Assembly: GCA_040221055.1 (NCBI GenBank)
Contig: JAVJVN010000004.1
Span: 62,001-126,000 of the forward strand
Origin: Rhodothermales bacterium
GTDB taxonomy: Bacteria > Bacteroidota > Rhodothermia > Rhodothermales > UBA10348
Direction of reading: 5' to 3'
Length of the DNA stretch: 64,000 bases
Positions 7,248-62,468 of this stretch are shown piece after piece (the stretch's first letter is position 1; each line of letters starts with the position of its first letter). A program made the translations under genes and the position numbers. Under the pieces are notes generated by a model that searched no databases, had not been told where the DNA came from, and saw only the letters and a program-made list of their open reading frames with translations.

Positions 7248-9903
7248 CAGCAGAGGCCTCGGTCTGCATTTCAAGGGCCAGGTAGGCGTCGAGGCTGCGC
7301 GTGAGTGCACGCTCGGCCTCGGCGCTGCGCCCCTCCTCCAGGAGCAGGATTCCCCACGTGTGCGCGGCTTCCGCCACGTCGGCGTCTTCCTCGCCCCACA
7401 GGGCGGCCATCATGTCTACAGCACGGCCGTATGCGGCGATGGCCTGGCTGCGTTGTTCGCCCTCCAGATAAACGGCGGCCAGATCTCGCTGCGTGAGCGC
7501 GGCATAGGCCGATGAACCCGCCTGACCCAAAACATTGACGGCCTGGACGTACCACCGCGCGGCGTCGGTGTGCATGCCGCGGGCCTTGTCCAGGATGCCC
7601 AGCCAGCGCAGGTCCATCCCGACAAAGAAATCGATTTCGCCGGCATTGGCCCGGTGGATGTCGAGCGTCCGCAGGAGGTAGCGCTCGGCTTCCGCGAAAT
7701 TGCCCTGGGCCAGCAGGGTCCGCCCCAGGTAGCTCAATGCCCGCGCTGTCTCGTTGTGGTCCGGACCGTAGATGCTTTCCCGCCGGGCTACAGCATCCTC
7801 CAGGAGCTGCCGGGCTTCATCGAGCGATCCCAGATCATACAGGATGCTGCCCAGGTTGTAAATGTTGTCAGCCACCAACGGATGACGATCGCCCAATACG
7901 GACCGGGACATGCCCAATGATTCGCGGTAATACCGCTCGGCGGCGGCAAAGTCGCCCTGGTTGGCGGCGAATGTACCCAGGTTGGACAGCGTTTCGGCGA
8001 TGTGTTCGTGATCCCCCCCGTAGAGCTCCCGACGCTCGGCCAAAGCTTCCTGGAGCAGGGCCTCGGCCGTGGAGTCCTGACGCAGCCGCATGTGGGAGAC
8101 CGCCATGTCGTTGAGGGTCTGTGCGGCCTCCTGGCTGGGATAACCAAACAGTGCCCGCTGCATGGCCAGGGCCTCTTCGTAGAGCCGGACGGCCTCCTCC
8201 CACTCCCGGGTGGTAGACCCTTCGTCCACGACGTAAGCGTAGCGGTAGAGCGCCTCGGCCAATTCGGGACTTGCCCCCTCCGGCCCCAGCCGGCTCCGCA
8301 GCTCGCGCACGTTGTCCTGGATGAGGTTGAGTGCGTTGTCGTGCGAGCCCAGTTCCGTATAGACCGCAGCAATGGTATTGCGAAGCGCCGCCTGGAGTTC
8401 GACAGGCGTATCGGGGTCCTCCGTAATCCGCTCCGCCCCCGCATCCACGAGCTGTCGGACCGTCATGTCCCGCCCCTGGACACGATCCGGACTGGCCTCA
8501 TTGAACAGGTCGACCACGAACGCCGTGATGGCCTTTGACTTCCGGGCTTCCAATTCAATCTGGTTGCGCTGCGCGGCCGTGTCGACCGCATACCGGACCG
8601 AAAGCCCGGTCGCCAGGACGAGAAGGAATGCAATCACGACGCCGGCGGCTACGCCGGCCTTGTGCCGCCGTACGAACCGGTCTGCCCGGTACAACACGGA
8701 ATCCGTCTGGGCCGAGACGGGCAGCCCCTGCCGGTAGCGGCCAATATCCTGCAGCAACTGATCGGCCGACTGGTAGCGTCGGTCCATATCCTTGCGCAGC
8801 GCCATGAGCACGATCCGGTCCAGATCTCCGCTGAGTTGGCGCCGGAGCCGCTCCAGCGGCGTGCGGCGCTTCTCGGAGACGAGGGTGGGCGACGTGTTTG
8901 CCTGCTCGTCCTTGACCCGGGAGATGGCCGTGCTGGGGCGCTCCGGTTCCTTCTCCAGCACGATCTTCTCGATTTCGTGCCGGGCCATGGTCTGGAATTG
9001 GAACGGCCGATGCCCCGTCAACAACTCGTACAAGAGGACACCCAGCTGATACACATCGCTGGCGGTGGTCAGATTCCCACCGCGCATCTGTTCCGGGCTG
9101 GCGTACTCCGGCGTCATGACCCGCAACTCTTCCCGCGTCATGGGCAATGTGTACCCGGTCAGGTCCGGATTCAGGAATTTGGCGATGCCGAAGTCGAGCA
9201 ATTTCACTTCGCCGGATGCGGTCACCAGCACATTGGCGGGCTTCAGATCCCGATGCACGATCAGGTTCTGATGCGCATAGTGGACGGCCGAACACACTTT
9301 CTCGAACAGGTCCAGACGCGATTCGAGCGGCAGGCGGTGTTCGTCGCAGTACCGGTCTATCCGTTCACCGTCCACGTATTCCATGACGAAATACGATACG
9401 CCGTCCTCCGTCTGTCCCCCATCCAGCAGCCGGGCGATATTCGGATGCGTCAGCGAGGCCAGGATTTGCCGCTCCACGCGGAATCGCTTCAGGATCTCGT
9501 CCGAGTCCATGCCCCGCTTGATGACCTTCACGGCCACATACCGCTTGAAGGCTTCATCGTCCCGGACGGCCAGATACACCTGCCCCATGCCACCCTTGCC
9601 GAGGGGGCGGATGAGCCGGTACGGCCCGACAACTTTCGGCATGGAGGACTTGGCGTCGTCCGTCTCTTCGGACTCTCCGGCCGCCTCCGCCAGGTTCTTC
9701 AACGCATCGCGCAAATGCGACGGGTTGTCCGTCTCCAGGAAGCCGTCCGATGCGCCTGCGGCATCCAGCATCCGGAGCACGTCATTGCAGAGGGTCGTGT
9801 CATCCCCGCATTCGGACGCGATGAATGCGCGGCGATCGCCCGGGGGCAATTCCAGTGCGGCATCCAACACGGCCTCCATCCGCTTCCAGCGCGCCTGATC
9901 CAT
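7201..9903 (-). CDS. Membrane Ser/Thr protein kinase with TPR repeats
   Basis: 900 residues. After a 90-residue N-terminal helical region comes a Hanks-type kinase domain (about 93-390): glycine loop GKGGMG at 102-107, VAVK lysine at 126, catalytic loop HRDLKPAN at 218-225, DFG at 237-239 and a long insert before the TPEYASPEQ activation segment. One membrane helix follows at about 416-434, then an extracytoplasmic C-terminal part of TPR units (AEALYRYAY, AEYLSNLG-like, AERYYRESLG). It is 3 nt downstream of an ECF sigma factor gene, a pairing seen in several phyla where the kinase is thought to activate the sigma factor by phosphorylation. The TPR part probably senses a partner protein. Confidence 0.93.
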   Translation of the reverse strand: MDQARWKRMEAVLDAALELPPGDRRAFIASECGDDTTLCNDVLRMLDAAGASDGFLETDNPSHLRDALKNLAEAAGESEETDDAKSSMPKVVGPYRLIRPLGKGGMGQVYLAVRDDEAFKRYVAVKVIKRGMDSDEILKRFRVERQILASLTHPNIARLLDGGQTEDGVSYFVMEYVDGERIDRYCDEHRLPLESRLDLFEKVCSAVHYAHQNLIVHRDLKPANVLVTASGEVKLLDFGIAKFLNPDLTGYTLPMTREELRVMTPEYASPEQMRGGNLTTASDVYQLGVLLYELLTGHRPFQFQTMARHEIEKIVLEKEPERPSTAISRVKDEQANTSPTLVSEKRRTPLERLRRQLSGDLDRIVLMALRKDMDRRYQSADQLLQDIGRYRQGLPVSAQTDSVLYRADRFVRRHKAGVAAGVVIAFLLVLATGLSVRYAVDTAAQRNQIELEARKSKAITAFVVDLFNEASPDRVQGRDMTVRQLVDAGAERITEDPDTPVELQAALRNTIAAVYTELGSHDNALNLIQDNVRELRSRLGPEGASPELAEALYRYAYVVDEGSTTREWEEAVRLYEEALAMQRALFGYPSQEAAQTLNDMAVSHMRLRQDSTAEALLQEALAERRELYGGDHEHIAETLSNLGTFAANQGDFAAAERYYRESLGMSRSVLGDRHPLVADNIYNLGSILYDLGSLDEARQLLEDAVARRESIYGPDHNETARALSYLGRTLLAQGNFAEAERYLLRTLDIHRANAGEIDFFVGMDLRWLGILDKARGMHTDAARWYVQAVNVLGQAGSSAYAALTQRDLAAVYLEGEQRSQAIAAYGRAVDMMAALWGEEDADVAEAAHTWGILLLEEGRSAEAERALTRSLDAYLALEMQTEASAVRRSLARLTAAPSRN

Positions 9904-27000: not shown

Positions 27001-27060
27001 ATTCGCGTTCCGCGGTAGTCAGGGTGCACCTGCACAAAACAGGACTTGACCAACACAGGA

Positions 27061-27092
27061 GGGGCGGGGCGGCCTCCCGGCCGCCCCGCCCC
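27061..27092 (-). terminator. Long GC hairpin between transporter and secreted-protein genes
   Basis: A perfect 14-bp stem (27061-27074 with 27079-27092) closes a TCCC loop. The minus-strand sequence after it has only short T stretches, so it may act as an attenuator or as a 3'-end stabiliser rather than a strict intrinsic terminator. Confidence 0.6.
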
Positions 27093-27126
27093 CGATCCGT
27101 GCTGAACTACATGATGGACATGGCCC

Positions 27127-43867: not shown

Positions 43868-43871
43868 AAGC

Positions 43872-44684
43872 ATGAAACTCTACGACCGGAAGCAGATCGG
43901 CGTCATTCTCAAGAAAGCCGCCGAGGATGCGCCCGTTGACGAGCCCGACAGCGCTGTGGGATTGTCCGTCGAGGAGTTGCAGCAGGTGGCGCGCGCTGCC
44001 GGCATAGATCCGGCCCGGATACCCAAAGCGGTGGCCGAACTGGAGTCGGCCCCGGAATCCGGTGATCACACGTTCTGGGGTGGTCCATTCGCATTCGACA
44101 GCCAGGTGCTGGCCAATGGCGAGATAGACGCGGGGCAATGGGAAGAGATGCTTGTTGCCATACGCGCCTTCTTCCGGGACAAAGGCGACGTCACCGTCCG
44201 CGACTCCGTATTCGAGTGGAGCTCGCCATGGGGCACAACCAACGCCGCCCATGTCACCGCGCGCAAGGACAACGGCAAGACGCGGATAAGCGTGCATTGG
44301 CACGGGCCACTGACCGCCGTACCGTACTACCTGCCCGTGCCCGTGGTGACCATCGGAGCACTCATTTTTGCATCCGGCGTCCTGGAATGGTCGGCCGTTC
44401 CGGGACTGACGTTCACGGCCCTGGCTGCCGGGCTGGCCTTCGTGACGGGACGCCTGTTCCTTCGCCGGAACATGGCCGCGGGCCTCAAAAAGCTCCGGAA
44501 CCTGACCGCGAGCCTGGACCAGATAGCCGGCGCGCGTCCCGCTGGCGCCGACATCGCCGCGCCGCTCTCGGAAGGCGTTCCCACTGGGGAGAAAAGCGCC
44601 GATCCCGTCCTGCAACTGCCGGACGAGCCGACCGCCGACGAACCGGATTCCCAAGCGACGGTGCGCGGTCGGTCGCGGGCTTGA
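43872..44684 (+). CDS. Hypothetical protein with two central membrane helices
   Basis: 270 residues from MKLYDRKQIGVILKKAAE. The N-terminal helical stretch (KKAAEDAPVDE, GLSVEELQQVARAAGID) resembles short SHOCT-like or regulator segments, followed by a cytoplasmic globular part and two membrane helices (about 153-190). The C-terminal 60 residues are acidic and disordered. Unrecognised family. It starts 4 nt after glgP, so it is probably in the same transcript. Confidence 0.7.
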   Translation: MKLYDRKQIGVILKKAAEDAPVDEPDSAVGLSVEELQQVARAAGIDPARIPKAVAELESAPESGDHTFWGGPFAFDSQVLANGEIDAGQWEEMLVAIRAFFRDKGDVTVRDSVFEWSSPWGTTNAAHVTARKDNGKTRISVHWHGPLTAVPYYLPVPVVTIGALIFASGVLEWSAVPGLTFTALAAGLAFVTGRLFLRRNMAAGLKKLRNLTASLDQIAGARPAGADIAAPLSEGVPTGEKSADPVLQLPDEPTADEPDSQATVRGRSRA

Positions 44685-44798
44685 GCCGTTTTACGGCAAT
44701 GTCCAGCGGCACGCTTCAGGCCTGTATGGCGCGGTGTGGCTGAACATAGTCGTTAAAATGAGCGTTTACGTCCATTGTCGACCAACCGGAGCAGAATC

Positions 44799-44954
44799 AT
44801 GGCCACCGCGAAATCATTACATCGTTCAGAGGTGATCAAAGAACTCGACAAGATTCCGTCCGCGAAAGAAAGTTTCCGTCAGGGGTGGAGCGAAGCTCAG
44901 TCAGAAGAGACTCACCCAGTATCGGAGCTTTGGGAGGACACTGATGCCGCGTGA
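44799..44954 (+). CDS. Small antitoxin-like protein of a decayed toxin-antitoxin pair
   Basis: 51 residues, too short for most gene callers: MATAKSLHRSEVIKELDK, ESFRQGWSEAQ, and a C-terminal HPVSELWEDTDAA. The tail overlaps the start of the next frame by 11 nt, the arrangement of many type II antitoxins. I infer antitoxin from this layout and from the toxin-like start that follows. Confidence 0.5.
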   Translation: MATAKSLHRSEVIKELDKIPSAKESFRQGWSEAQSEETHPVSELWEDTDAA

Positions 44955-44997
44955 AGGGAATCCTCCTTTTGAGGTCCGATTCACGTCCGAAGTTTGA
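44944..44997 (+). pseudogene. Truncated RelE/ParE-like toxin start
   Basis: A 17-codon frame beginning MPREGNPPFEVRFTSEV and ending in TGA. The FEVRFT start is how RelE/ParE-type toxins begin; the remainder is missing. The ATG overlaps the antitoxin stop. It is probably a toxin decapitated by deletion or a stop mutation. Confidence 0.45.
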
Positions 44998-45020
44998 CTC
45001 CATCAGTTGCTATACTTTAT

Positions 45021-45036
45021 TAAAGCACGTGCTTTA
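45021..45036. promoter_or_regulatory. 16-bp perfect palindrome upstream of the intact toxin-antitoxin pair
   Basis: TAAAGCACGTGCTTTA is a perfect palindrome. It begins two bases into the -10-like TTATTA (45017-45024... by spacing 17 nt after TTGACT at 44994-44999), so it overlaps a promoter, as autoregulatory toxin-antitoxin operators do. It is 124 nt before the antitoxin start. Confidence 0.5.
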
Positions 45037-45159
45037 CATTCATATAGTCGGAACGAAGACAACGAAGAGCAGGCCACCGATTGCAAATCAGACGCAGAAT
45101 GAGAAAATGTGTGTGAAACGTTACTGTATGCACTGTGTAGAAAACGCACTCTCAATCGA

Positions 45160-45360
45160 ATGCCAGCCATGACAGAACCATCAGTCAAAGAAAAGGTCCT
45201 CAAGGCGGTGGGTGAACTGCCCTCGGATGTGACATTCGAGGACGTAATGGAGCAGCTCTTTTTCCTCTACAAAATTGAGCAGGGGTTGCGCCAGATTGAT
45301 GATGGCCAAGGCATCCCGCATGCGGAGGTCAAGAAGCGTTTGCACAAGTGGCACACGTAA
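45160..45360 (+). CDS. Antitoxin of a RelE/ParE-type pair
   Basis: 66 residues from MPAMTEPSVKEKV (an ATG at 45169 is equally possible). Small acidic helical protein: AVGELPSDVTFEDVMEQLFFLYKIEQGL, then GIPHAEVKKRLHKW, a pattern I recognise as a common short antitoxin paired with RelE/ParE toxins. Its stop overlaps the toxin start by 13 nt. Confidence 0.75.
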   Translation: MPAMTEPSVKEKVLKAVGELPSDVTFEDVMEQLFFLYKIEQGLRQIDDGQGIPHAEVKKRLHKWHT

Positions 45361-45650
45361 TCTGGGCACCCCAGGCGATCGCCGACTTGGACGCCATCGG
45401 TAGCTTCATGGCCAGGGAAACGCCCCAATTTGCACAGATCTTGGTGGACGGGGTGTATGACGCAGTCACTCGTCTGGTAGATTTTCCGCGCTCAGGGCGC
45501 GTGGTACCTGAGATTGGCGACGAGGCAATCAGGGAAATCCTGTACAGGGGCCACCGGATTGTCTATGTCCTGAGCGGAAAGGAAGGCAGAGAGGAGGCAA
45601 AGGTGCTGACGGTGTTCCACTCGTCGATGCCATTCGGGGAATCAAGGTAA
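45348..45650 (+). CDS. RelE/ParE-family toxin
   Basis: 100 residues, GTG start. The family pattern is clear: HVIWAPQAIADLDAIGSFMA, FPRSGRVVPEI, REILYRGHRIVYVL and a final strand VLTVFHSSMPF. RelE-type toxins cleave mRNA in the ribosome; ParE-type act on gyrase. Which of the two it is cannot be decided here. It overlaps the antitoxin by 13 nt. Confidence 0.88.
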   Translation: MAHVIWAPQAIADLDAIGSFMARETPQFAQILVDGVYDAVTRLVDFPRSGRVVPEIGDEAIREILYRGHRIVYVLSGKEGREEAKVLTVFHSSMPFGESR

Positions 45651-45747
45651 ATCGGTCTTTCATGACTTTGGCCACATAGGCTGAATTGCTTCGACCGTTA
45701 ACTTCACGTACCGGCGGAAGGCGAGCCGGGTACGAATTCGAAGCAGG

Positions 45748-48700
45748 ATGGTCAACGTCATGAAAATGTGGGTGCGAGGTTGGATTCTCGGGGTGGCGGT
45801 CATCCTGAGCGTCGCCCTTCCGGCGAGCGCCCAGTCCCTCGTAAAGGACATAAACACGCTGACAAGCGGTCCGCGTCCGCATGATCTCGTTTCTACCGGA
45901 ACGCAGGCGTTCTTTACCAGCGGGGGTGGACTCTGGGTAGTCGACGAAGCCGGTATCCACATGCGTCGCGTCTTCAAGGATTGGCCCGGCAACCTGCGGG
46001 GGTTCGCGCCCGATCAATGGGCTGGTGCTGCGTTGAATGGAAAGCTGCTGTTTCGACTTCAGGGATCAGCAACCGGGTTCTCCCAGTCGCCCTATTTCGA
46101 AGATTTGTGGGTCAGCGACGGGACGCCTGACGGCACATTTTCGTTGACTGACGTCAAGTCACGGTACAGGATCGGGCACAGTATTGCCCTTGGAAACCAC
46201 GTGTACTTCCTGAAACACCTTGCGGACGGATATCGCAACTCCGTGAGTGAGCTGTGGATCACCAACGGAACGAAAGTGGGGACGGAACTCCTTGCGTCCT
46301 TTCGTGCCTCAGACGAAGGAATTGTTGAATCGCTCCATGAATTCGACGGTGCCTTGTGGTTCGTCACCAAGCGATATGGCGAGTCCAGGTATCCGGTCCA
46401 ATACGACCTGGTCCAATTCGATACGGTCAGCCACGAGAGCACAACGACTGGTTTCACGTCATCCACATACATGGATATCACAGGCATTTCAGAATCGAAG
46501 CTGTTCCTGTTTGTTGGTGAAGATGATGGTGGTCTCGAATTGTGGGCCATGGACAAGGACTCACGCGATCCTCAACGGGTGCATGCTTTCCCGGATGACA
46601 CCTACGTGAGCACATACGCTACGTGGGGCATTGCGACGACGAGCAGTCATTTCCTCTTCAAATCCAGTAATTCAAGGCACTTCAGCGATCTGTACGCGTC
46701 GGATGGAACGCCTGAGGGAACACACCTGCTGACAAACAAGATGGGAGGATGGAGTACGTGGAATCCCGGGCGGAAATCGGGCGTCGTCGGGAATCGGGCC
46801 CTCTTCCAGGCCCCGGACTCCACTCATAGTGAACGCATTTGGACAACGGATGGTACCGTGGAGGGTACCGAAATCCTGACGTGGCCGGAATCGGGAGATC
46901 CTTTCGACGTGACCGATGGGTTCACTGTGTTCAGAGATGAGGTTTTTTTCGCCGCTTGGCAGCGCGCAACGGGCTGGGAACTCTGGGCGACGGACGGCAC
47001 GCCTGGTGGAACCCGTTTGGCAGCCGACTTCCGTCCGGGGCCTGAAAGCGGCTCGGTCGATCCAGTAGTCGCTACGAATTCCGGGGTATTGGGTACCGCT
47101 CTGGACCTGTCCGGGAACCCCCGCCTCTGGTATTCCAGCGGGATTCCCGGAAAAGAGCGAACGGTCCCGTATGTCACCGACTATGCCCGCAACAACTCAT
47201 CCCACCCACAACGCTTCCGCCGATTTGGCAACACCGTCTATTTCACGGCAGGTACCGAGGAAACAGGCAGGGACTTGTGGAAAACAGACGGGACCCCTTC
47301 CGACACGGACTTGCTCTTCCCCCCGGTCCCCGACGGGCTATCCTCGAATGCAACGGCCATTGGCAGTATCCGTGACCACCTGTTCATTGCTACCGACGAC
47401 AGTCTCTACTCACTCAGCCTCGAGTCCGGCCGAATAACCAATCTCAGTCTACCAGGGCGCGGCCCTTTCCATCCATCCAGGCTTCGCCAGAATCGGATGT
47501 ATTTCAATGATTCAAGTCCGTACGGTCTGCTTTTTGCGCTTGATGAACACGGAAATCCCGAGTTGTGGACGTCGGATGGGACCGTGGACGGCACCCGGAA
47601 GGTATCGGCATTCGGCACGCCATCCACCCGCAACCCGGACTTTTCCCCGTACCATGACTATCTCGACAGGGTCATGGGCACGGTTGATGGAAGACACGTT
47701 GTGCTCAAATACGCGCCCGAAGGTCGATTCGTATACAGTATTGATCCGCTGACGGGTTCGATGGAGATGCTTCTCGATCCATCGTTGACCTTCGGTAGCG
47801 CACACATGGTTCAAGGACACAACACGCACCTCCTGCACTATTACAGGAGCCCATCAAACCACTTCTTTACAACGGATGGCACCACATCGGGAACCAAGAA
47901 GGTGGAATTGACAGGCGGGCCGGGCCTCCCGGAATCCATTCAGGAAGTCCACCAGCACCAGAACGGACTGCTCTTTACCGCAACCACGTCGGACACGGGG
48001 CGCGAATTGTGGTATTCCGACGGAACGCCTGAAGGGACACGGATTCTCCGTGACATCTGCCCGGGGGCATGCGGTTCAGTGCCCCAGGCTTTCGTGAGCG
48101 TGGGCGAGCATACCTTTTTCAAGGTCTATTCTGAAGGCGACGATCACGTATGGGTGACCGATGGAACGACGGAGGGAACGGTACCCGTGATCACGGAACG
48201 AACACCCGAAGGAGAACGCGATGTGGAGGTGCTCCGGATGTTTCCGACAGACTCGGGCGTACTCGTGATGATGCGAATGGGCGTTCGCAACAACCAGATC
48301 TGGTATACTGACGAGTCAAAAGGATCCGGTCGTCTGCTGTCGGACGGTTTTGACGATGGATACGAGTTCTCCGGCGACGTCCAGCATGGGGCAGTACTGG
48401 GCCACCAATTCATCTTCGCGGCCGAACACCCCATTTATGGCGATGAACTCTTCAAGCTCGATTTGCCGGGGCGCGCCACGTCGGTCGCCACCGAAAGCAC
48501 CGTACCGACAGGAATCGGAATTGAACCGGGCTATCCCAACCCGTTCAGTAAACAATTGACCGTGTCGTTCGACCTGCCCACTGCCATGGAGATCCGCATA
48601 GAGGTATTCGACATGCTGGGACGCCGGGTATGGACCGAAGAGGCGACTCGCTTGCCTGCGGGCCGCCACACCACGGTTCTGCAGCTCGGCCCTGAACTGG

Positions 48701-48774
48701 CTTCGGGCGTCTATCATATTCGGGTTCGAGCAGACTCGCACGTCCGAACCATCAGAGCCGTCAAGGCCGACTGA
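45748..48774 (+). CDS. Large secreted protein with ELWxxDGTxxGT repeats and T9SS tail
   Basis: 1008 residues. Signal peptide (about 1-29, ASAQ). About eleven units of about 60-100 residues follow, each carrying an E/DLWxxDGTxxGT motif (LWVSDGTPDGT, ELWATDGTPGGT, ELWTSDGTVDGT, ELWYSDGTPEGT, VWVTDGTTEGT), which form a beta-propeller-like surface domain. The C-terminal 80 residues are a T9SS sorting domain (GYPNPFSKQLTVSFDLP, FDMLGRRVWTEEA, GVYHIRVRAD). Role unknown. The gene is less GC-rich than its neighbours. Confidence 0.85.
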   Translation: MVNVMKMWVRGWILGVAVILSVALPASAQSLVKDINTLTSGPRPHDLVSTGTQAFFTSGGGLWVVDEAGIHMRRVFKDWPGNLRGFAPDQWAGAALNGKLLFRLQGSATGFSQSPYFEDLWVSDGTPDGTFSLTDVKSRYRIGHSIALGNHVYFLKHLADGYRNSVSELWITNGTKVGTELLASFRASDEGIVESLHEFDGALWFVTKRYGESRYPVQYDLVQFDTVSHESTTTGFTSSTYMDITGISESKLFLFVGEDDGGLELWAMDKDSRDPQRVHAFPDDTYVSTYATWGIATTSSHFLFKSSNSRHFSDLYASDGTPEGTHLLTNKMGGWSTWNPGRKSGVVGNRALFQAPDSTHSERIWTTDGTVEGTEILTWPESGDPFDVTDGFTVFRDEVFFAAWQRATGWELWATDGTPGGTRLAADFRPGPESGSVDPVVATNSGVLGTALDLSGNPRLWYSSGIPGKERTVPYVTDYARNNSSHPQRFRRFGNTVYFTAGTEETGRDLWKTDGTPSDTDLLFPPVPDGLSSNATAIGSIRDHLFIATDDSLYSLSLESGRITNLSLPGRGPFHPSRLRQNRMYFNDSSPYGLLFALDEHGNPELWTSDGTVDGTRKVSAFGTPSTRNPDFSPYHDYLDRVMGTVDGRHVVLKYAPEGRFVYSIDPLTGSMEMLLDPSLTFGSAHMVQGHNTHLLHYYRSPSNHFFTTDGTTSGTKKVELTGGPGLPESIQEVHQHQNGLLFTATTSDTGRELWYSDGTPEGTRILRDICPGACGSVPQAFVSVGEHTFFKVYSEGDDHVWVTDGTTEGTVPVITERTPEGERDVEVLRMFPTDSGVLVMMRMGVRNNQIWYTDESKGSGRLLSDGFDDGYEFSGDVQHGAVLGHQFIFAAEHPIYGDELFKLDLPGRATSVATESTVPTGIGIEPGYPNPFSKQLTVSFDLPTAMEIRIEVFDMLGRRVWTEEATRLPAGRHTTVLQLGPELASGVYHIRVRADSHVRTIRAVKAD

Positions 48775-48808
48775 ACGGAGCCACTGACACACGACGAATG
48801 ACGCAAAA

Positions 48809-48839
48809 TTGACGGCGTATATGCCCGGGCCCTACTTTG
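48809..48839 (+). promoter_or_regulatory. Candidate promoter of the metalloprotease gene
   Basis: TTGACG (48809-48814), an 18-nt spacer and TACTTTG (48833-48839) resemble a -33/-7 pair. The downstream element also overlaps a short inverted repeat. Confidence 0.4.
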
Positions 48840-48851
48840 ACGTCGCGTCAA
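48837..48851. repeat. TTGACG-N3-CGTCAA inverted repeat at the metalloprotease promoter
   Basis: Two 6-bp arms with a 3-nt spacer overlap the -7-like element and lie 37 nt before the chosen ATG at 48888. It could be a small operator. Confidence 0.35.
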
Positions 48852-48887
48852 TCAGTCCCCCGTCCGTCCAATCATCGGCTCCTACCC

Positions 48888-51338
48888 ATGCGCCTCAAAA
48901 TGACCCTCTTCCTCGCGATCTTCGCGAGCCTGCTCTGGACCTCCCCGGCCGCCGCCCAGGAGGCGGCGTATGACAGCGTGGTGACCGCATCGGCCCAAAC
49001 CGACCCCGGGCTGTTCCTCGTGCACCAGGTCGACGGGAAGATCCTGTTCGAGATTCCCGATGCCATGCTCGGCCGGGACATGCTCATCATGAGCCGCTAT
49101 GACAAGACGCAGGACGGGTATGCGAATGTCGGGGCGAACATGGCCGGCAACCTCCTCGTGCGCTGGGAACGCCGGCACGACCGGATCCTGCTGAGAGGCG
49201 TATCCCATTCCATGACGGCCGACCCCGATGACCGGGTCAGCCTTGCCGTCGAGAACTCCTCATTCGCGAGCGTGATCGAGGCCTTCCCCATCCTCACGCG
49301 GGGTGACGGGACCTCGGTGGTGGACGTCACGGACCTGTACCTGGGCGACCACCCCAGCTTCTCCATGCCGCGCAGCCGCCGCACCCAACTCAACGTCCGC
49401 TCCTACGACCGGGACCGGAGCTGGCTTGAATTCACCCGGAGCTTCCCCATCAACGTGGAAGTCCGCGTGGTACGCACGTATGCGGCCGACTCACCTCCCT
49501 CGGCAGGCCGGGGCGGAGCGGTATCCTTCGAAGTGAATCATTCGATGATCCTCCTTCCGGAAGAGCCGATGATGCCCCGTCTCCACGATGAACGGGTCAC
49601 CTACATCAGCACCAGCCGGACCGACTTCTCCAGCGATTTCCAGGGCGTTCGGCCCGAACGATACATCCGCCGGTATCGCATGGAGCCATCGGATCCGGAA
49701 GCCTGGGCAAGGGGCGAGCTCGTGGATCCGGTCCGCCCCTGGATCTGGTACATAGACCCCGCAACGCCGGAAGAGTGGATTCCCTACTACATCGCCGGTG
49801 TCGAGGAGTGGCAGGAAGCATTCGAACTCGCCGGGTTCAAGAACGCCATCCAGGCGCGCCTGGCCCCGACACCCGAGGAGGACCCTGAGTTTTCCCTTCT
49901 CGATGCGCGCTACTCCGTCATCCGATACGTCCCGACCACCACGCGGTCCGCGAATTCGGGCGGGGACGTCGTCGACCCACGGTCGGGCGAGGTCATCCGC
50001 GCCCATACGAACATGTACCACGGGCTCGACGAGCGCCTGCGCTGGTGGCTGCTGTCCCAGGTCGGCGCGGCAAACCCTGCCTTCCAGACGAACAAGCTGT
50101 CCGAGGAAGACATGGGCGAAGCCATCCGGTACGTGGTATCGCATGAAACCGCCCACTCCGTCGGGCTCCCGCACAACCAGATGGCCAACTTCGTCTTCCC
50201 GGTCGATTCGTTGCGCAGCCGGGAGTTCGTGGAACGGATGGGACACTCCGGTTCATCCGTGGGCCGGACCCGCTACAATTACGTCGCCCAGCCGGGCGAC
50301 AACGTGCCCCCGGAGCGTCGGATAGGCCTCTGGGACAAGTTCGCTGTCATGTGGGGCTACCGGCCCATCCCTGAAGCCACCACGCCGCGGGAAGAGTTCG
50401 AAACCCTGAACCAGTGGATCGTGGAGCGCTCCCATCTCCCGTGGTTCCGCTCGGCTGAAGCCCTGTTCGGAATGGATGTGGAGTGGGACCCCAAGCGGAT
50501 GACGGAGGGCATTTCGGATGATCCCGTTGAGGCGGCCGAATGGGGCATGCGGAATCTGCGCTACGCCGCCGAAAACCTCATGGACTGGGTGCTGGCCCCC
50601 GGCGATGACTACTACGAGCTCGAAACGCATCACCTCCAACTCCTCACCCAGTGGAATCGATACGCCGAGCATGCGGCGGCGGCTGTCGGCGGCTCCTGGA
50701 CCCATTACAAACGCTTCGGCGAGGAAGGCTGGGTCTACACACCCGTCGAGCCCGAGTATCAACGGAAAGCCATGCAATTCCTGGACGAACACGTCCTCCA
50801 GACGCCGGATTGGGCCCTGCAAATCGATCAGCTTCGCCGGATTGAGCATGCGGGCGTCGTCGAGCGGGTACGCGCCTACCAGGAACTGGCCGTCCAACGC
50901 CTCCTGAATCATGCGCGACTGGCCCGGATGATCGAGCACGAAGCCTTCCTGGGCGACGAGACCTACCGGCCGGCCGACATGCTGGATGATACGCGCCGCA
51001 TCGTCTGGCGCGAGGTGGCCACCCGATCGGCCATCGATACATACCGGCGCAACCTCCAGCGGGCGTATCTCGACCAAGCGCATCATCTCCTGCAGGAAGC
51101 CGAGTCAGACCACTGGAATCCCCCGGGATCCGGCAACCTGCGCGTCGGCCGCAACGACGATCCGCCCCTGAACGCCGATCTCCACATCGGGCAGTCCGAC
51201 ATCCGGCCGCTCGTCCGTGACCAACTCCATCAACTCCAGGGCGAGCTGGAAGCCGCCCTCGCCGCCGGCGTCCGGGACCGCATGACCCGCATCCACCTGG
51301 AAGATGCGCTCGTCCGGATTGAAAAGGCGTTGGAATAG
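48888..51338 (+). CDS. Exported zinc metalloprotease (DUF5117-type)
   Basis: 816 residues from MRLKMTLFLAIFASLL, which carries a signal peptide (cut near AAAQ). N-terminal DUF5117/5118-type beta regions (residues about 30-250), then the metzincin-like catalytic domain with HETAHSVGLPHN (the HExxH-x-x-G-x-x-H arrangement) near 415 and a C-terminal helical domain. The upstream TTG in the same frame would exclude a clean signal peptide. It probably works in the periplasm. Confidence 0.85.
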   Translation: MRLKMTLFLAIFASLLWTSPAAAQEAAYDSVVTASAQTDPGLFLVHQVDGKILFEIPDAMLGRDMLIMSRYDKTQDGYANVGANMAGNLLVRWERRHDRILLRGVSHSMTADPDDRVSLAVENSSFASVIEAFPILTRGDGTSVVDVTDLYLGDHPSFSMPRSRRTQLNVRSYDRDRSWLEFTRSFPINVEVRVVRTYAADSPPSAGRGGAVSFEVNHSMILLPEEPMMPRLHDERVTYISTSRTDFSSDFQGVRPERYIRRYRMEPSDPEAWARGELVDPVRPWIWYIDPATPEEWIPYYIAGVEEWQEAFELAGFKNAIQARLAPTPEEDPEFSLLDARYSVIRYVPTTTRSANSGGDVVDPRSGEVIRAHTNMYHGLDERLRWWLLSQVGAANPAFQTNKLSEEDMGEAIRYVVSHETAHSVGLPHNQMANFVFPVDSLRSREFVERMGHSGSSVGRTRYNYVAQPGDNVPPERRIGLWDKFAVMWGYRPIPEATTPREEFETLNQWIVERSHLPWFRSAEALFGMDVEWDPKRMTEGISDDPVEAAEWGMRNLRYAAENLMDWVLAPGDDYYELETHHLQLLTQWNRYAEHAAAAVGGSWTHYKRFGEEGWVYTPVEPEYQRKAMQFLDEHVLQTPDWALQIDQLRRIEHAGVVERVRAYQELAVQRLLNHARLARMIEHEAFLGDETYRPADMLDDTRRIVWREVATRSAIDTYRRNLQRAYLDQAHHLLQEAESDHWNPPGSGNLRVGRNDDPPLNADLHIGQSDIRPLVRDQLHQLQGELEAALAAGVRDRMTRIHLEDALVRIEKALE

Positions 51339-51419
51339 AAGATCATCGAACCGGTAGTCAGTATAACGGAGACTATGTACCCGGTAAGGTTGAGGTATCG
51401 TCGCCGGTGCCGGAACACA

Positions 51420-51487
51420 GGCCCGGTTCACCGATGAGGAGCCTCAAATGCACAGCATTTGGAGATCCGAAGCGGTGCAATCGGGCC
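51420..51487 (+). repeat. 68-bp hairpin repeat, copy 1
   Basis: First copy of a repeat also at 51983 and 52195, differing from the other two at five positions, four of them in the right arm, where pairing with the left arm is kept. It can fold into a long imperfect hairpin with GGCCCGGT at the base and AAATGC against GCATTT at the tip. It ends 31 nt before the acetyltransferase ATG. Confidence 0.9.
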
Positions 51488-51518
51488 GTCAACCCTGTCC
51501 AGTGCCTGACCGACTGAA

Positions 51519-51980
51519 ATGAACCCGGAAATCCACTATCGCACCGCTGTCAAGGAAGACCTCGGCACCCTGATCTGGCTTCTTTCGGATGATGCGCTTG
51601 GCGCGACACGCGAGCACGCCGACGCGGAGCGGATGCAGGACTACAGCGCGGCATTCGATGCGATCTCAGGGGACCCGAACAACCAGCTGGTGGTCGCCGA
51701 ACGGGAGGGCACGGTCATCGCCGTCCTGCAGCTGACGTACATCCCGAACCTGACGTACACCGGCAGCTGGCGGGCACAGATAGAAGGCGTCCGCGTCGAC
51801 CGGAATGAGCGAGGACGGGGCGTCGGGCGGGCGCTGGTACAGCACGCCATCCAGCTGGCGAGCGAACGCGGTTGCCTCATCGTGCAGCTCACCACGGACA
51901 AGCGCAGACCAGCCGCCCTGGAATTCTACCGGGAGCTCGGCTTTGAAGCCACCCATGAAGGAATGAAGCTTTGGCTATAG
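51519..51980 (+). CDS. GNAT-family N-acetyltransferase, repeat-flanked
   Basis: 153 residues with the acetyl-CoA loop RVDRNERGRGVGRALVQHAI (Q/RxxGxG/A) near 92-111 and the C-terminal EFYRELGFEATHEGMKLWL. Acceptor unknown. Its stop is 2 nt before repeat copy 2, and a 12-codon copy of its C-terminus recurs at 52151-52192 directly before repeat copy 3. Confidence 0.9.
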   Translation: MNPEIHYRTAVKEDLGTLIWLLSDDALGATREHADAERMQDYSAAFDAISGDPNNQLVVAEREGTVIAVLQLTYIPNLTYTGSWRAQIEGVRVDRNERGRGVGRALVQHAIQLASERGCLIVQLTTDKRRPAALEFYRELGFEATHEGMKLWL

Positions 51981-51982
51981 AA

Positions 51983-52050
51983 GGCCCGGTTCACCGATGA
52001 GGAGCCTCAAATGCGCAGCATTTGGAGATCCGAAGCGGTAGGACCGGGCC
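51983..52050 (+). repeat. 68-bp hairpin repeat, copy 2
   Basis: Identical to copy 3 over all 68 positions. It starts 2 nt after the acetyltransferase stop codon. The arms GGCCCGGT...ACCG and CGGT...ACCGGGCC pair, with a 2-nt against 3-nt internal bulge. Confidence 0.92.
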
Positions 52051-52068
52051 GACAGAACCAGAACAACT

Positions 52069-52084
52069 GCGGTAGGACCGGGCC
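52069..52084 (+). repeat. Partial copy of the 68-bp repeat (right arm only)
   Basis: GCGGTAGGACCGGGCC, the last 16 positions of the repeat, recurs 18 nt after copy 2. It may be the leftover of a copy lost by recombination. Confidence 0.75.
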
Positions 52085-52150
52085 GAATGCCGCACTTCAG
52101 CTATATGATTTTAAAGCAGACACTTAAAATACTTGTAGTAAGCGGAATGC

Positions 52151-52192
52151 TTCTTTGAAGCCACCCACGAGGGGATGAAGCTCTGGCTGTGA
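52151..52192 (+). pseudogene. C-terminal remnant of a second acetyltransferase
   Basis: FEATHEGMKLWL followed by a stop repeats the end of the 51519 gene at protein level, but with synonymous changes in many codons and a different stop (TGA rather than TAG). The rest of that gene is absent. It ends 2 nt before repeat copy 3. Confidence 0.8.
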
Positions 52193-52194
52193 GA

Positions 52195-52262
52195 GGCCCG
52201 GTTCACCGATGAGGAGCCTCAAATGCGCAGCATTTGGAGATCCGAAGCGGTAGGACCGGGCC
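52195..52262 (+). repeat. 68-bp hairpin repeat, copy 3
   Basis: Third copy, identical to copy 2. It ends 8 nt before the stop of the convergent phenylalanine hydroxylase gene. Confidence 0.92.
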
Positions 52263-52270
52263 GAACAAAC

Positions 52271-53095
52271 CTAAAGCAATCCCTCGCCCCTGGCCCACAC
52301 CGTAAACGACTCAACCAGCTGATCGAACGACTCCAGCGCGAAGAGCAACGGCTGCACGTGCCAGACCTCATAGTCCTGCCGGATGACCCGGTCAATCGAG
52401 AACGGCACCACTTCGACATCGTCGGAAAGCGCATGCTCCAGTTCGCCCTTCGAACTCATGATGCCCGCGCCAAACACGCGCAAGCCCTTCGTTTCGCGGA
52501 TCAATCCGAACTCGATGGTGAACCAGTGCAGCCGCTCCAACGCCAGACGCTGTTCGCCGACCGCGCGCAGGGCCGCCTGCCCGAAGAAGTGGTAGAAATC
52601 GGCGACCGCCGGTTCCGTGAGCATGGGCATGTGTCCGAACATGTCGTGGAAGCAATCGGGAGCCGGCGTGTAGTCCAACTCGTGCTTCTCCCGGATATAG
52701 TCCGTAGAGGGAAACGTCCGTTCGGAAATCAGGCGAAAGAAATCCCGCTCGTGGAGCAAACCCGGAATCCGCGCAATGCGCCAACCCGTGGCGCGCTCCA
52801 TGCTGGCACTCAGGTCGCGCAGCAAGGGGATCCGGTCATGGCTCATGTCCAGCGTCCCGATCCCGTCCAGGAAGGCCTGCCCGGCCCGGCCCGGCAGCAA
52901 TTGCTTCTGACGCTCAAACAAGTAGCGCCAGTTCTCATGCATGTACGGCGTATAGGCCGGCGGCTCGATGGCGTCGCCAATGGGCGGATCGCCGTCCAGG
53001 TAGTGCGGAATACACCGGGGGTCTACGCCCTCATCGGCTGCCTTCTCGTAAGCTGACTTGACTTCCATCCCCGTCTCCAAATCCTTGATGAACAC
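52271..53095 (-). CDS. phhA: Phenylalanine 4-hydroxylase (pterin-dependent)
   Basis: 274 residues, typical for bacterial enzymes. Iron ligands His150 and His155 in CFHDMFGH and Glu195 in WFTIEFGL; pterin-loop segment DYTPAPDCF. It makes tyrosine from phenylalanine with tetrahydrobiopterin or a similar pterin. No pterin recycling gene is adjacent. The repeat array ends just beyond its stop. Confidence 0.95.
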   Translation of the reverse strand: MFIKDLETGMEVKSAYEKAADEGVDPRCIPHYLDGDPPIGDAIEPPAYTPYMHENWRYLFERQKQLLPGRAGQAFLDGIGTLDMSHDRIPLLRDLSASMERATGWRIARIPGLLHERDFFRLISERTFPSTDYIREKHELDYTPAPDCFHDMFGHMPMLTEPAVADFYHFFGQAALRAVGEQRLALERLHWFTIEFGLIRETKGLRVFGAGIMSSKGELEHALSDDVEVVPFSIDRVIRQDYEVWHVQPLLFALESFDQLVESFTVWARGEGLL

Positions 53096-61484: not shown

Positions 61485-62468
61485 ATGGATCCAGACCACC
61501 CCGTCTTTGTCACCGGCGGCACCGGTTTCGTCGGCAGCCACCTGGTGGAGTACCTGCTCGCCAGCGGTGCCACGGATGTCCGGTGCCTGGTCCGCAAGGA
61601 CCCGAAGTGGCTGACGGGTCTGCCCGTGACGATCATTCGGGGGGATCTGGATGAAAACGATGCGCTCGATGCGGGTCTGAAGGGCGTCGCCACCGTCTAC
61701 CACGTCGCCGCACTCACGCGGGCCCCGGCCTACGATGCGTTCCGCCGTGCCAACGTGGACGGTACCCGCCGCCTGTTGGAGCGCGTCCGCGCGGCCGACG
61801 GCGTCCAGCGCATCGTTCTCGTCAGCAGCCTGGCGGCCGTCGGCCGCGCGGACGCACGGGTGCCGGACGAAGCTGCCCCGCTGCGGCCCGTGAGCATGTA
61901 CGGTCGCAGCAAGATGGAAATGGAGGCGCTCGTGCCCGAGTTCGCGGACCTGCCCATTACCGTCGTGCGGCCCCCGGCCGTCTACGGTCCGCGTGAAACC
62001 GACATCTTCACCTTCTTCCAGACCCTTTCCAGGGGCCTGTGTCCGATTGTGGGTGCAGGGACGGAACCGGCGCTGAGCCTGGTCCACGTGCAGGACCTGG
62101 TCCGGGGCATGGCGGCCGCCGCCGCGTCGCCCGCTGCGGTCGGGGGCACGTTCTTCCTCGGAAACCGGGCTCCGTATTCCTGGGGGCACATCCGCGACGC
62201 GGCGGCGGCCGCCCTCGGACGTCGCGTGCTGACGCTGCGCATCCCCCGGGCGCTGGTCCGACCGGTTGGCGCGGCCAGTGAATGGGCGGGGCGGTTGACC
62301 GGAGCGTATCCTCCGCTGAACAGGGAAAAAGCCACGGAAATCCTGGAAGCGGCCACCATGTGCTCCAGCCAACGGGCCATGGAGACCTTCGGATACGCCC
62401 CGGAGATCCCGCTGGACGCCGGCATGGCCGAAACCATCGCGTGGTACCGCGACAAGCGTTGGCTGTAA
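61485..62468 (+). CDS. NAD-dependent epimerase/dehydratase (extended SDR)
   Basis: 327 residues: nucleotide loop TGGTGFVGSHL at 10-20, HVAALTR, and active site SMYGRSK (YxxxK) near 140. C-terminal part as in 3-beta-hydroxysteroid dehydrogenase/sugar epimerase types. Substrate unknown. It starts 29 nt after rlmD. Confidence 0.9.
   Translation: MDPDHPVFVTGGTGFVGSHLVEYLLASGATDVRCLVRKDPKWLTGLPVTIIRGDLDENDALDAGLKGVATVYHVAALTRAPAYDAFRRANVDGTRRLLERVRAADGVQRIVLVSSLAAVGRADARVPDEAAPLRPVSMYGRSKMEMEALVPEFADLPITVVRPPAVYGPRETDIFTFFQTLSRGLCPIVGAGTEPALSLVHVQDLVRGMAAAAASPAAVGGTFFLGNRAPYSWGHIRDAAAAALGRRVLTLRIPRALVRPVGAASEWAGRLTGAYPPLNREKATEILEAATMCSSQRAMETFGYAPEIPLDAGMAETIAWYRDKRWL

Follow-up and report, generated by a model that had tools for sequence, protein, structure and literature searches.

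Why should a 68-bp hairpin stand three times within 843 bp, twice at exactly the same short distance behind the same protein end? The repeats lie in a window of 64,000 nucleotides (the whole stretch of DNA analysed here), where the initial annotation had seen a possible array of gene cassettes. Its starting points for the three copies (51420, 51983 and 52195) are exact; a partial copy does begin at 52069, as it had reported, but extends over 19 bp rather than 16. The left part of the locus runs from the stop codon of a metallopeptidase gene (51338) through R1, a leader of 31 nt, a GNAT acetyltransferase gene and 2 nt to R2. From R2 it continues through 18 nt, the 19-bp piece, an AT-rich spacer, a 13-codon GNAT remnant and 2 nt to R3, beyond which 8 nt lead to the stop of a convergent phenylalanine-4-hydroxylase gene. 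The features are as follows.

51420..51487, + strand: hairpin repeat R1, 93% identical to R2/R3; metallopeptidase stop 82 nt upstream
51488..51518, + strand: 31-nt leader, from R1 to the GNAT start codon
51519..51980, + strand: intact GNAT N-acetyltransferase gene, 153 aa (PF00583, 3.3e-21)
51983..52050, + strand: hairpin repeat R2; GNAT stop 2 nt upstream
52069..52087, + strand: 19-bp partial copy, GCGGTAGGACCGGGCCGAA, equal to the 3' end of the hairpin
52096..52152, + strand: AT-rich spacer, 32% G+C
52153..52192, + strand: 13-codon remnant of a second GNAT gene (TTTGAAGCC...CTGTGA), with five silent codon changes and a changed stop codon relative to the intact end
52195..52262, + strand: hairpin repeat R3, identical to R2; convergent phenylalanine-4-hydroxylase stop 8 nt beyond

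R2 and R3 do indeed follow two stops of the same GNAT C-terminus, TAG at 51978-51980 and TGA at 52190-52192, each 2 nt before the repeat. Calling the locus an acetyltransferase array goes further than its content, which is one GNAT gene and a 13-codon remnant, and R1 has no acetyltransferase end beside it at all: no GNAT remnant precedes it, its neighbours being the metallopeptidase stop 82 nt before and the GNAT start 31 nt after. Nothing else in the genome strongly matches the spacer at 52096..52152. Within it, at 52104-52131, lies an inverted pair, ATTTTAA...TTAAAAT, with a slight likeness to the core site of a tyrosine recombinase, which may be due to chance. The GNAT gene at 51519-51980 has a third-position G+C of 46% in its last 13 codons and 81% in the rest.

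Folding of every copy gave a single long imperfect hairpin for R1, R2 and R3 alike, in agreement with the initial annotation. As DNA, the repeats fold at -20.4 to -21.1 kcal/mol (z -4.5 to -5.2), with none of the shuffled sequences equally good, and as RNA at -37.5 to -39.6 kcal/mol (z about -5.8). R2 and R3 are identical at 68 of 68 positions, and R1 departs from both at five (33, 58, 59, 60 and 62). Four of the differing sites fall in one arm and the fold is retained in both versions, and in each of them a single base of the 3' arm stays unpaired. When alternative sets of letters were placed at the five differing sites, only 15 of 243 folded equally well. Evidence for structural constraint on the hairpin is nevertheless modest, because R2 variants carrying five random changes match R1 in quality of fold in 10% of cases. 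Two other places in the window form stronger hairpins as RNA, at 61786-61853 (-52.2 kcal/mol) and 27040-27107 (-44.5 kcal/mol).

How, then, did two identical hairpins come to stand behind two gene ends that are not identical? The intact GNAT end and the remnant encode the same 12 residues, yet 5 of the 12 codons are changed, all by silent transitions, and the stop codons differ; at all five silent differences the intact gene has A/T and the remnant G/C. On the basis of these 12 codons, the probability that five random changes would all be silent was about 0.0001 to 0.0007 by simulation, and the identity of R2 and R3 stands out against the diverged adjoining gene ends with a Fisher P of 0.001 to 0.004. 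Since every change is silent, the remnant probably descends from a once-functional second GNAT gene that was under selection during the divergence. Given the distance of 2 nt between stop codon and hairpin in both cases, the simplest assumption is that gene and hairpin were joined before the two gene ends diverged, after which the hairpin would have been either homogenised between the copies by gene conversion or kept constant by selection. Plain duplication, with no extra step, leaves the identity of the hairpins beside silently diverged gene ends unexplained.

The reading favoured here, to which we give about an even chance, is that of a decayed local array of units, homogenised by recombination, in which the hairpin serves as a 3' RNA stem-loop. 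Each unit would consist of a GNAT acetyltransferase gene and, at a fixed distance of 2 nt downstream of its stop codon, the 68-nt hairpin. The array would once have held at least two such units, the second of which has presumably lost most of its gene. Ordinary recombination between the hairpin copies may have both multiplied them and kept them alike; the route could have been unequal exchange mediated by RecA, gene conversion, or a switch of template at the palindrome. This account assumes a gene conversion that is limited to the hairpin. In the mRNA, the most likely role of the hairpin would be that of a stem-loop that protects the 3' end of the GNAT transcript or helps to end it. Known local tandem duplications with direct repeats are similar in that a gene is flanked by direct repeats, remnants persist, and recombination can add or drop units; here, however, the repeat forms a strong hairpin, whose conservation exceeds that of the adjoining gene end. 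Against the local array stands R1, which no GNAT remnant precedes and which tandem duplication of a gene-hairpin unit does not by itself explain, as do the missing T tract behind the copies and the missing hairpin behind other GNAT homologues.

The distribution of the repeat is extremely narrow. The source genome (22 contigs, 99.5% complete) has only the three copies, which fit within 843 bp. Apart from short matches due to chance or to coding sequence, the repeat was found neither in 148 relatives nor in 394 genomes sampled from the phylum, and it was likewise not found in the 113 other genomes of its order (114 including the source). A covariance model based on the structure recovered only R1, R2 and R3 above noise among 119 genomes, and nothing above noise in 28 genomes encoding the closest GNAT relatives. 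Covariance matches in five further genomes were dismissed as being at chance level (E 0.19 to 0.34), as were the roughly 20-bp matches at the DNA level in relatives (one, for example, at 6.7e-4), several of which fall in one conserved coding stretch with no surrounding hairpin. The phages and plasmids searched gave no match to the hairpin, the one match being of 67.5% between part of the GNAT gene and a Rhodococcus plasmid; viral contigs matched neither any of four patterns nor the GNAT protein. No description of such a repeat was found in the literature. The GNAT gene itself is patchy, occurring in 5 of 59 relatives at 51-57% identity (57% for the best within the family) and not found at E<=1e-20 in three other genomes of the genus, while relatives of similar identity are present in many phyla. 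Behind the stop codons of GNAT homologues from about 30 other genomes, no similar hairpin is seen. By the initial annotation's own criterion, the cassette idea would fail if the repeat occurred at this locus only or its copies flanked no common kind of gene; the search of the genome and its relatives yielded this locus alone and no common set of flanked genes, and the cassette reading thereby loses most of its support.

Could the locus nonetheless be built of cassettes? GNAT genes are common cargo of integron cassettes, and this general knowledge, together with the presence in the same genome of an integron integrase and of at least 13 attC sites, spread over several contigs, would favour a decayed integron cassette array (CALIN) derived from the host's own integron or another one. 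The integrase is encoded on contig 16, at about 7832-8857 (TIGR02249, 379.8 bits against a cut-off of 265), which is a different contig from that of the repeats and has its own attC array. The host attC sites are about 108 bp long with TAAC/GTTA ends, and a model built from six of them finds 13 clear sites, and thus at least 13 in all, over contigs 1, 6, 14, 15 and 16; contig 14 and the end of contig 4 hold weaker ones. A number of the attC sites lie at contig ends, as if one chromosomal integron array had been broken in assembly. Even with filters off, this model detected none of the repeats, its best score at the locus being 9.4 bits, inside the GNAT gene, and a model of the 68-mers found no match in the host integron array. 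As the initial annotation had noted, the integron core site is absent: there is no RYYYAAC/GTTRRRY pair in 51000-52400, and a reading of the sequence shows no AAC...GTT ends at the hairpins. The attC model is the stronger of these tests, because the attC sites of the host (TAAC/GTTATG) likewise escape the strict motif. By model and motif together, the 68-mers are not attC sites of the host integron, and they are without the defining attC feature. There is a likeness to integron cassettes in the compact single-ORF units placed side by side, each with a folding site immediately downstream of the stop codon, but the repeats have no core sites and differ from the host attC in length and sequence, and their locus has no attI or integrase and only one kind of gene. 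An origin as a CALIN is therefore extremely improbable. What about a cassette system in which a hairpin other than attC is the recombination site, the unit comprises leader, ORF and hairpin, and a tyrosine recombinase of the host, or one absent from its genome, does the work? The cassette-like layout that had been proposed does stand: a repeat, then a leader of 31 nt, a compact ORF, a gap of 2 nt and the next repeat. The unpaired 3'-arm base kept in both hairpin versions, the better conservation of the hairpin than of the adjoining gene end, the position of R3 at the edge of an insertion (see below) and the presence of five tyrosine recombinase genes in the host, one of them the integron integrase, all fit such a system. 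But the site is found only here, every search returned a single locus and a single kind of gene (the repeat-bounded units carry GNAT and the GNAT remnant, with no differing cargo), no recombinase gene lies beside the repeats, there is no attC core, and the attC model yields noise only. We consider this explanation quite unlikely. The more specific proposal, that the hairpin is the site of an undescribed system using a tyrosine recombinase and no attC core sites, with one small decaying array at this place, is very doubtful. A new cassette system is improbable, then, its support being limited to layout, site conservation and insertion edge.

The hairpin might instead be mobile by itself, as a non-autonomous element of MITE or REP type that landed more than once at the locus. 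A 68-bp imperfect palindrome that lies between genes has the right appearance, and the lack of any link between R1 and a GNAT end is what such an element would produce; REP/REPIN, ERIC and Correia/NEMIS elements, too, are short and imperfectly palindromic and lie in intergenic DNA close to 3' ends. Unlike these, however, the repeats occur as three copies at one locus, far from the dispersal that is typical of REP/REPIN, and no copies exist elsewhere in the genome. A RAYT/Y1 transposase (PF01797) was not found in the genome, and there are no convincing target-site duplications: none at R1 or R3, and at R2 a single 4-bp coincidence, AGAA. R2 and R3, moreover, share their position behind one and the same gene end; these two, at least, would therefore have moved with the gene. 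Repeated landing of a mobile hairpin is thus unlikely. A structured RNA, either a cis-regulator or a small RNA at the 3' end of GNAT, would account for the identity of R2 and R3 by constraint rather than by gene conversion. The 68 of 68 identical positions beside five silent changes in 12 codons, the structure of R1 kept despite four changes in one arm, and the strong RNA fold are consistent with this. However, Rfam 15 gave no relevant match even at E<=5, the hairpin is absent behind GNAT homologues and from the other genomes searched, R1 tolerates changes, and between R2 and R3 the loops are as invariant as the stems; we regard constraint on an RNA as a tentative and rather unlikely alternative. 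Nor is the hairpin a canonical intrinsic terminator, since no T tract follows it on either strand. It resembles one as a G+C-rich hairpin directly behind the stop codons of convergent genes, but differs in this lack and in forming three long, near-identical copies.

When did the repeats arrive? glgP (alpha-glucan phosphorylase) adjoins the phenylalanine hydroxylase gene in five relatives: three from the same genus, one from the same family and one from a different family within the order. In the source genome the two are separated by 8.4 kb (43868-52270), occupied by a 283-aa gene, by genes for a ParE-like toxin, a secreted protein, the metallopeptidase and GNAT, and by the repeats. This segment is a lineage-specific insertion, acquired in one or more steps and located between convergent genes as the initial annotation had it. 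Its right edge is formed by the 68-bp units, with R3 outermost; at the left edge no hairpin copy was found. The segment also has an AT-rich stretch near 44800-45199, and the ParE-like toxin gene is at 45348-45650. The idea that the insertion had truncated the hydroxylase gene was rejected, as the gene ends at about the same place in more distant relatives. The adjacency of glgP and hydroxylase in relatives, together with the patchy occurrence of GNAT, suggests that the repeats either came with an acquisition or arose afterwards.

What would either outcome mean? If the hairpin were truly the site of a cassette system, it would represent a second solution to the capture of gene cassettes, with a real integron in the same genome as an internal control. 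If, on the other hand, the ordinary reading of a local array holds, the locus would be a case in which a long palindrome behind a gene joins in local duplication and stays identical while the gene drifts.
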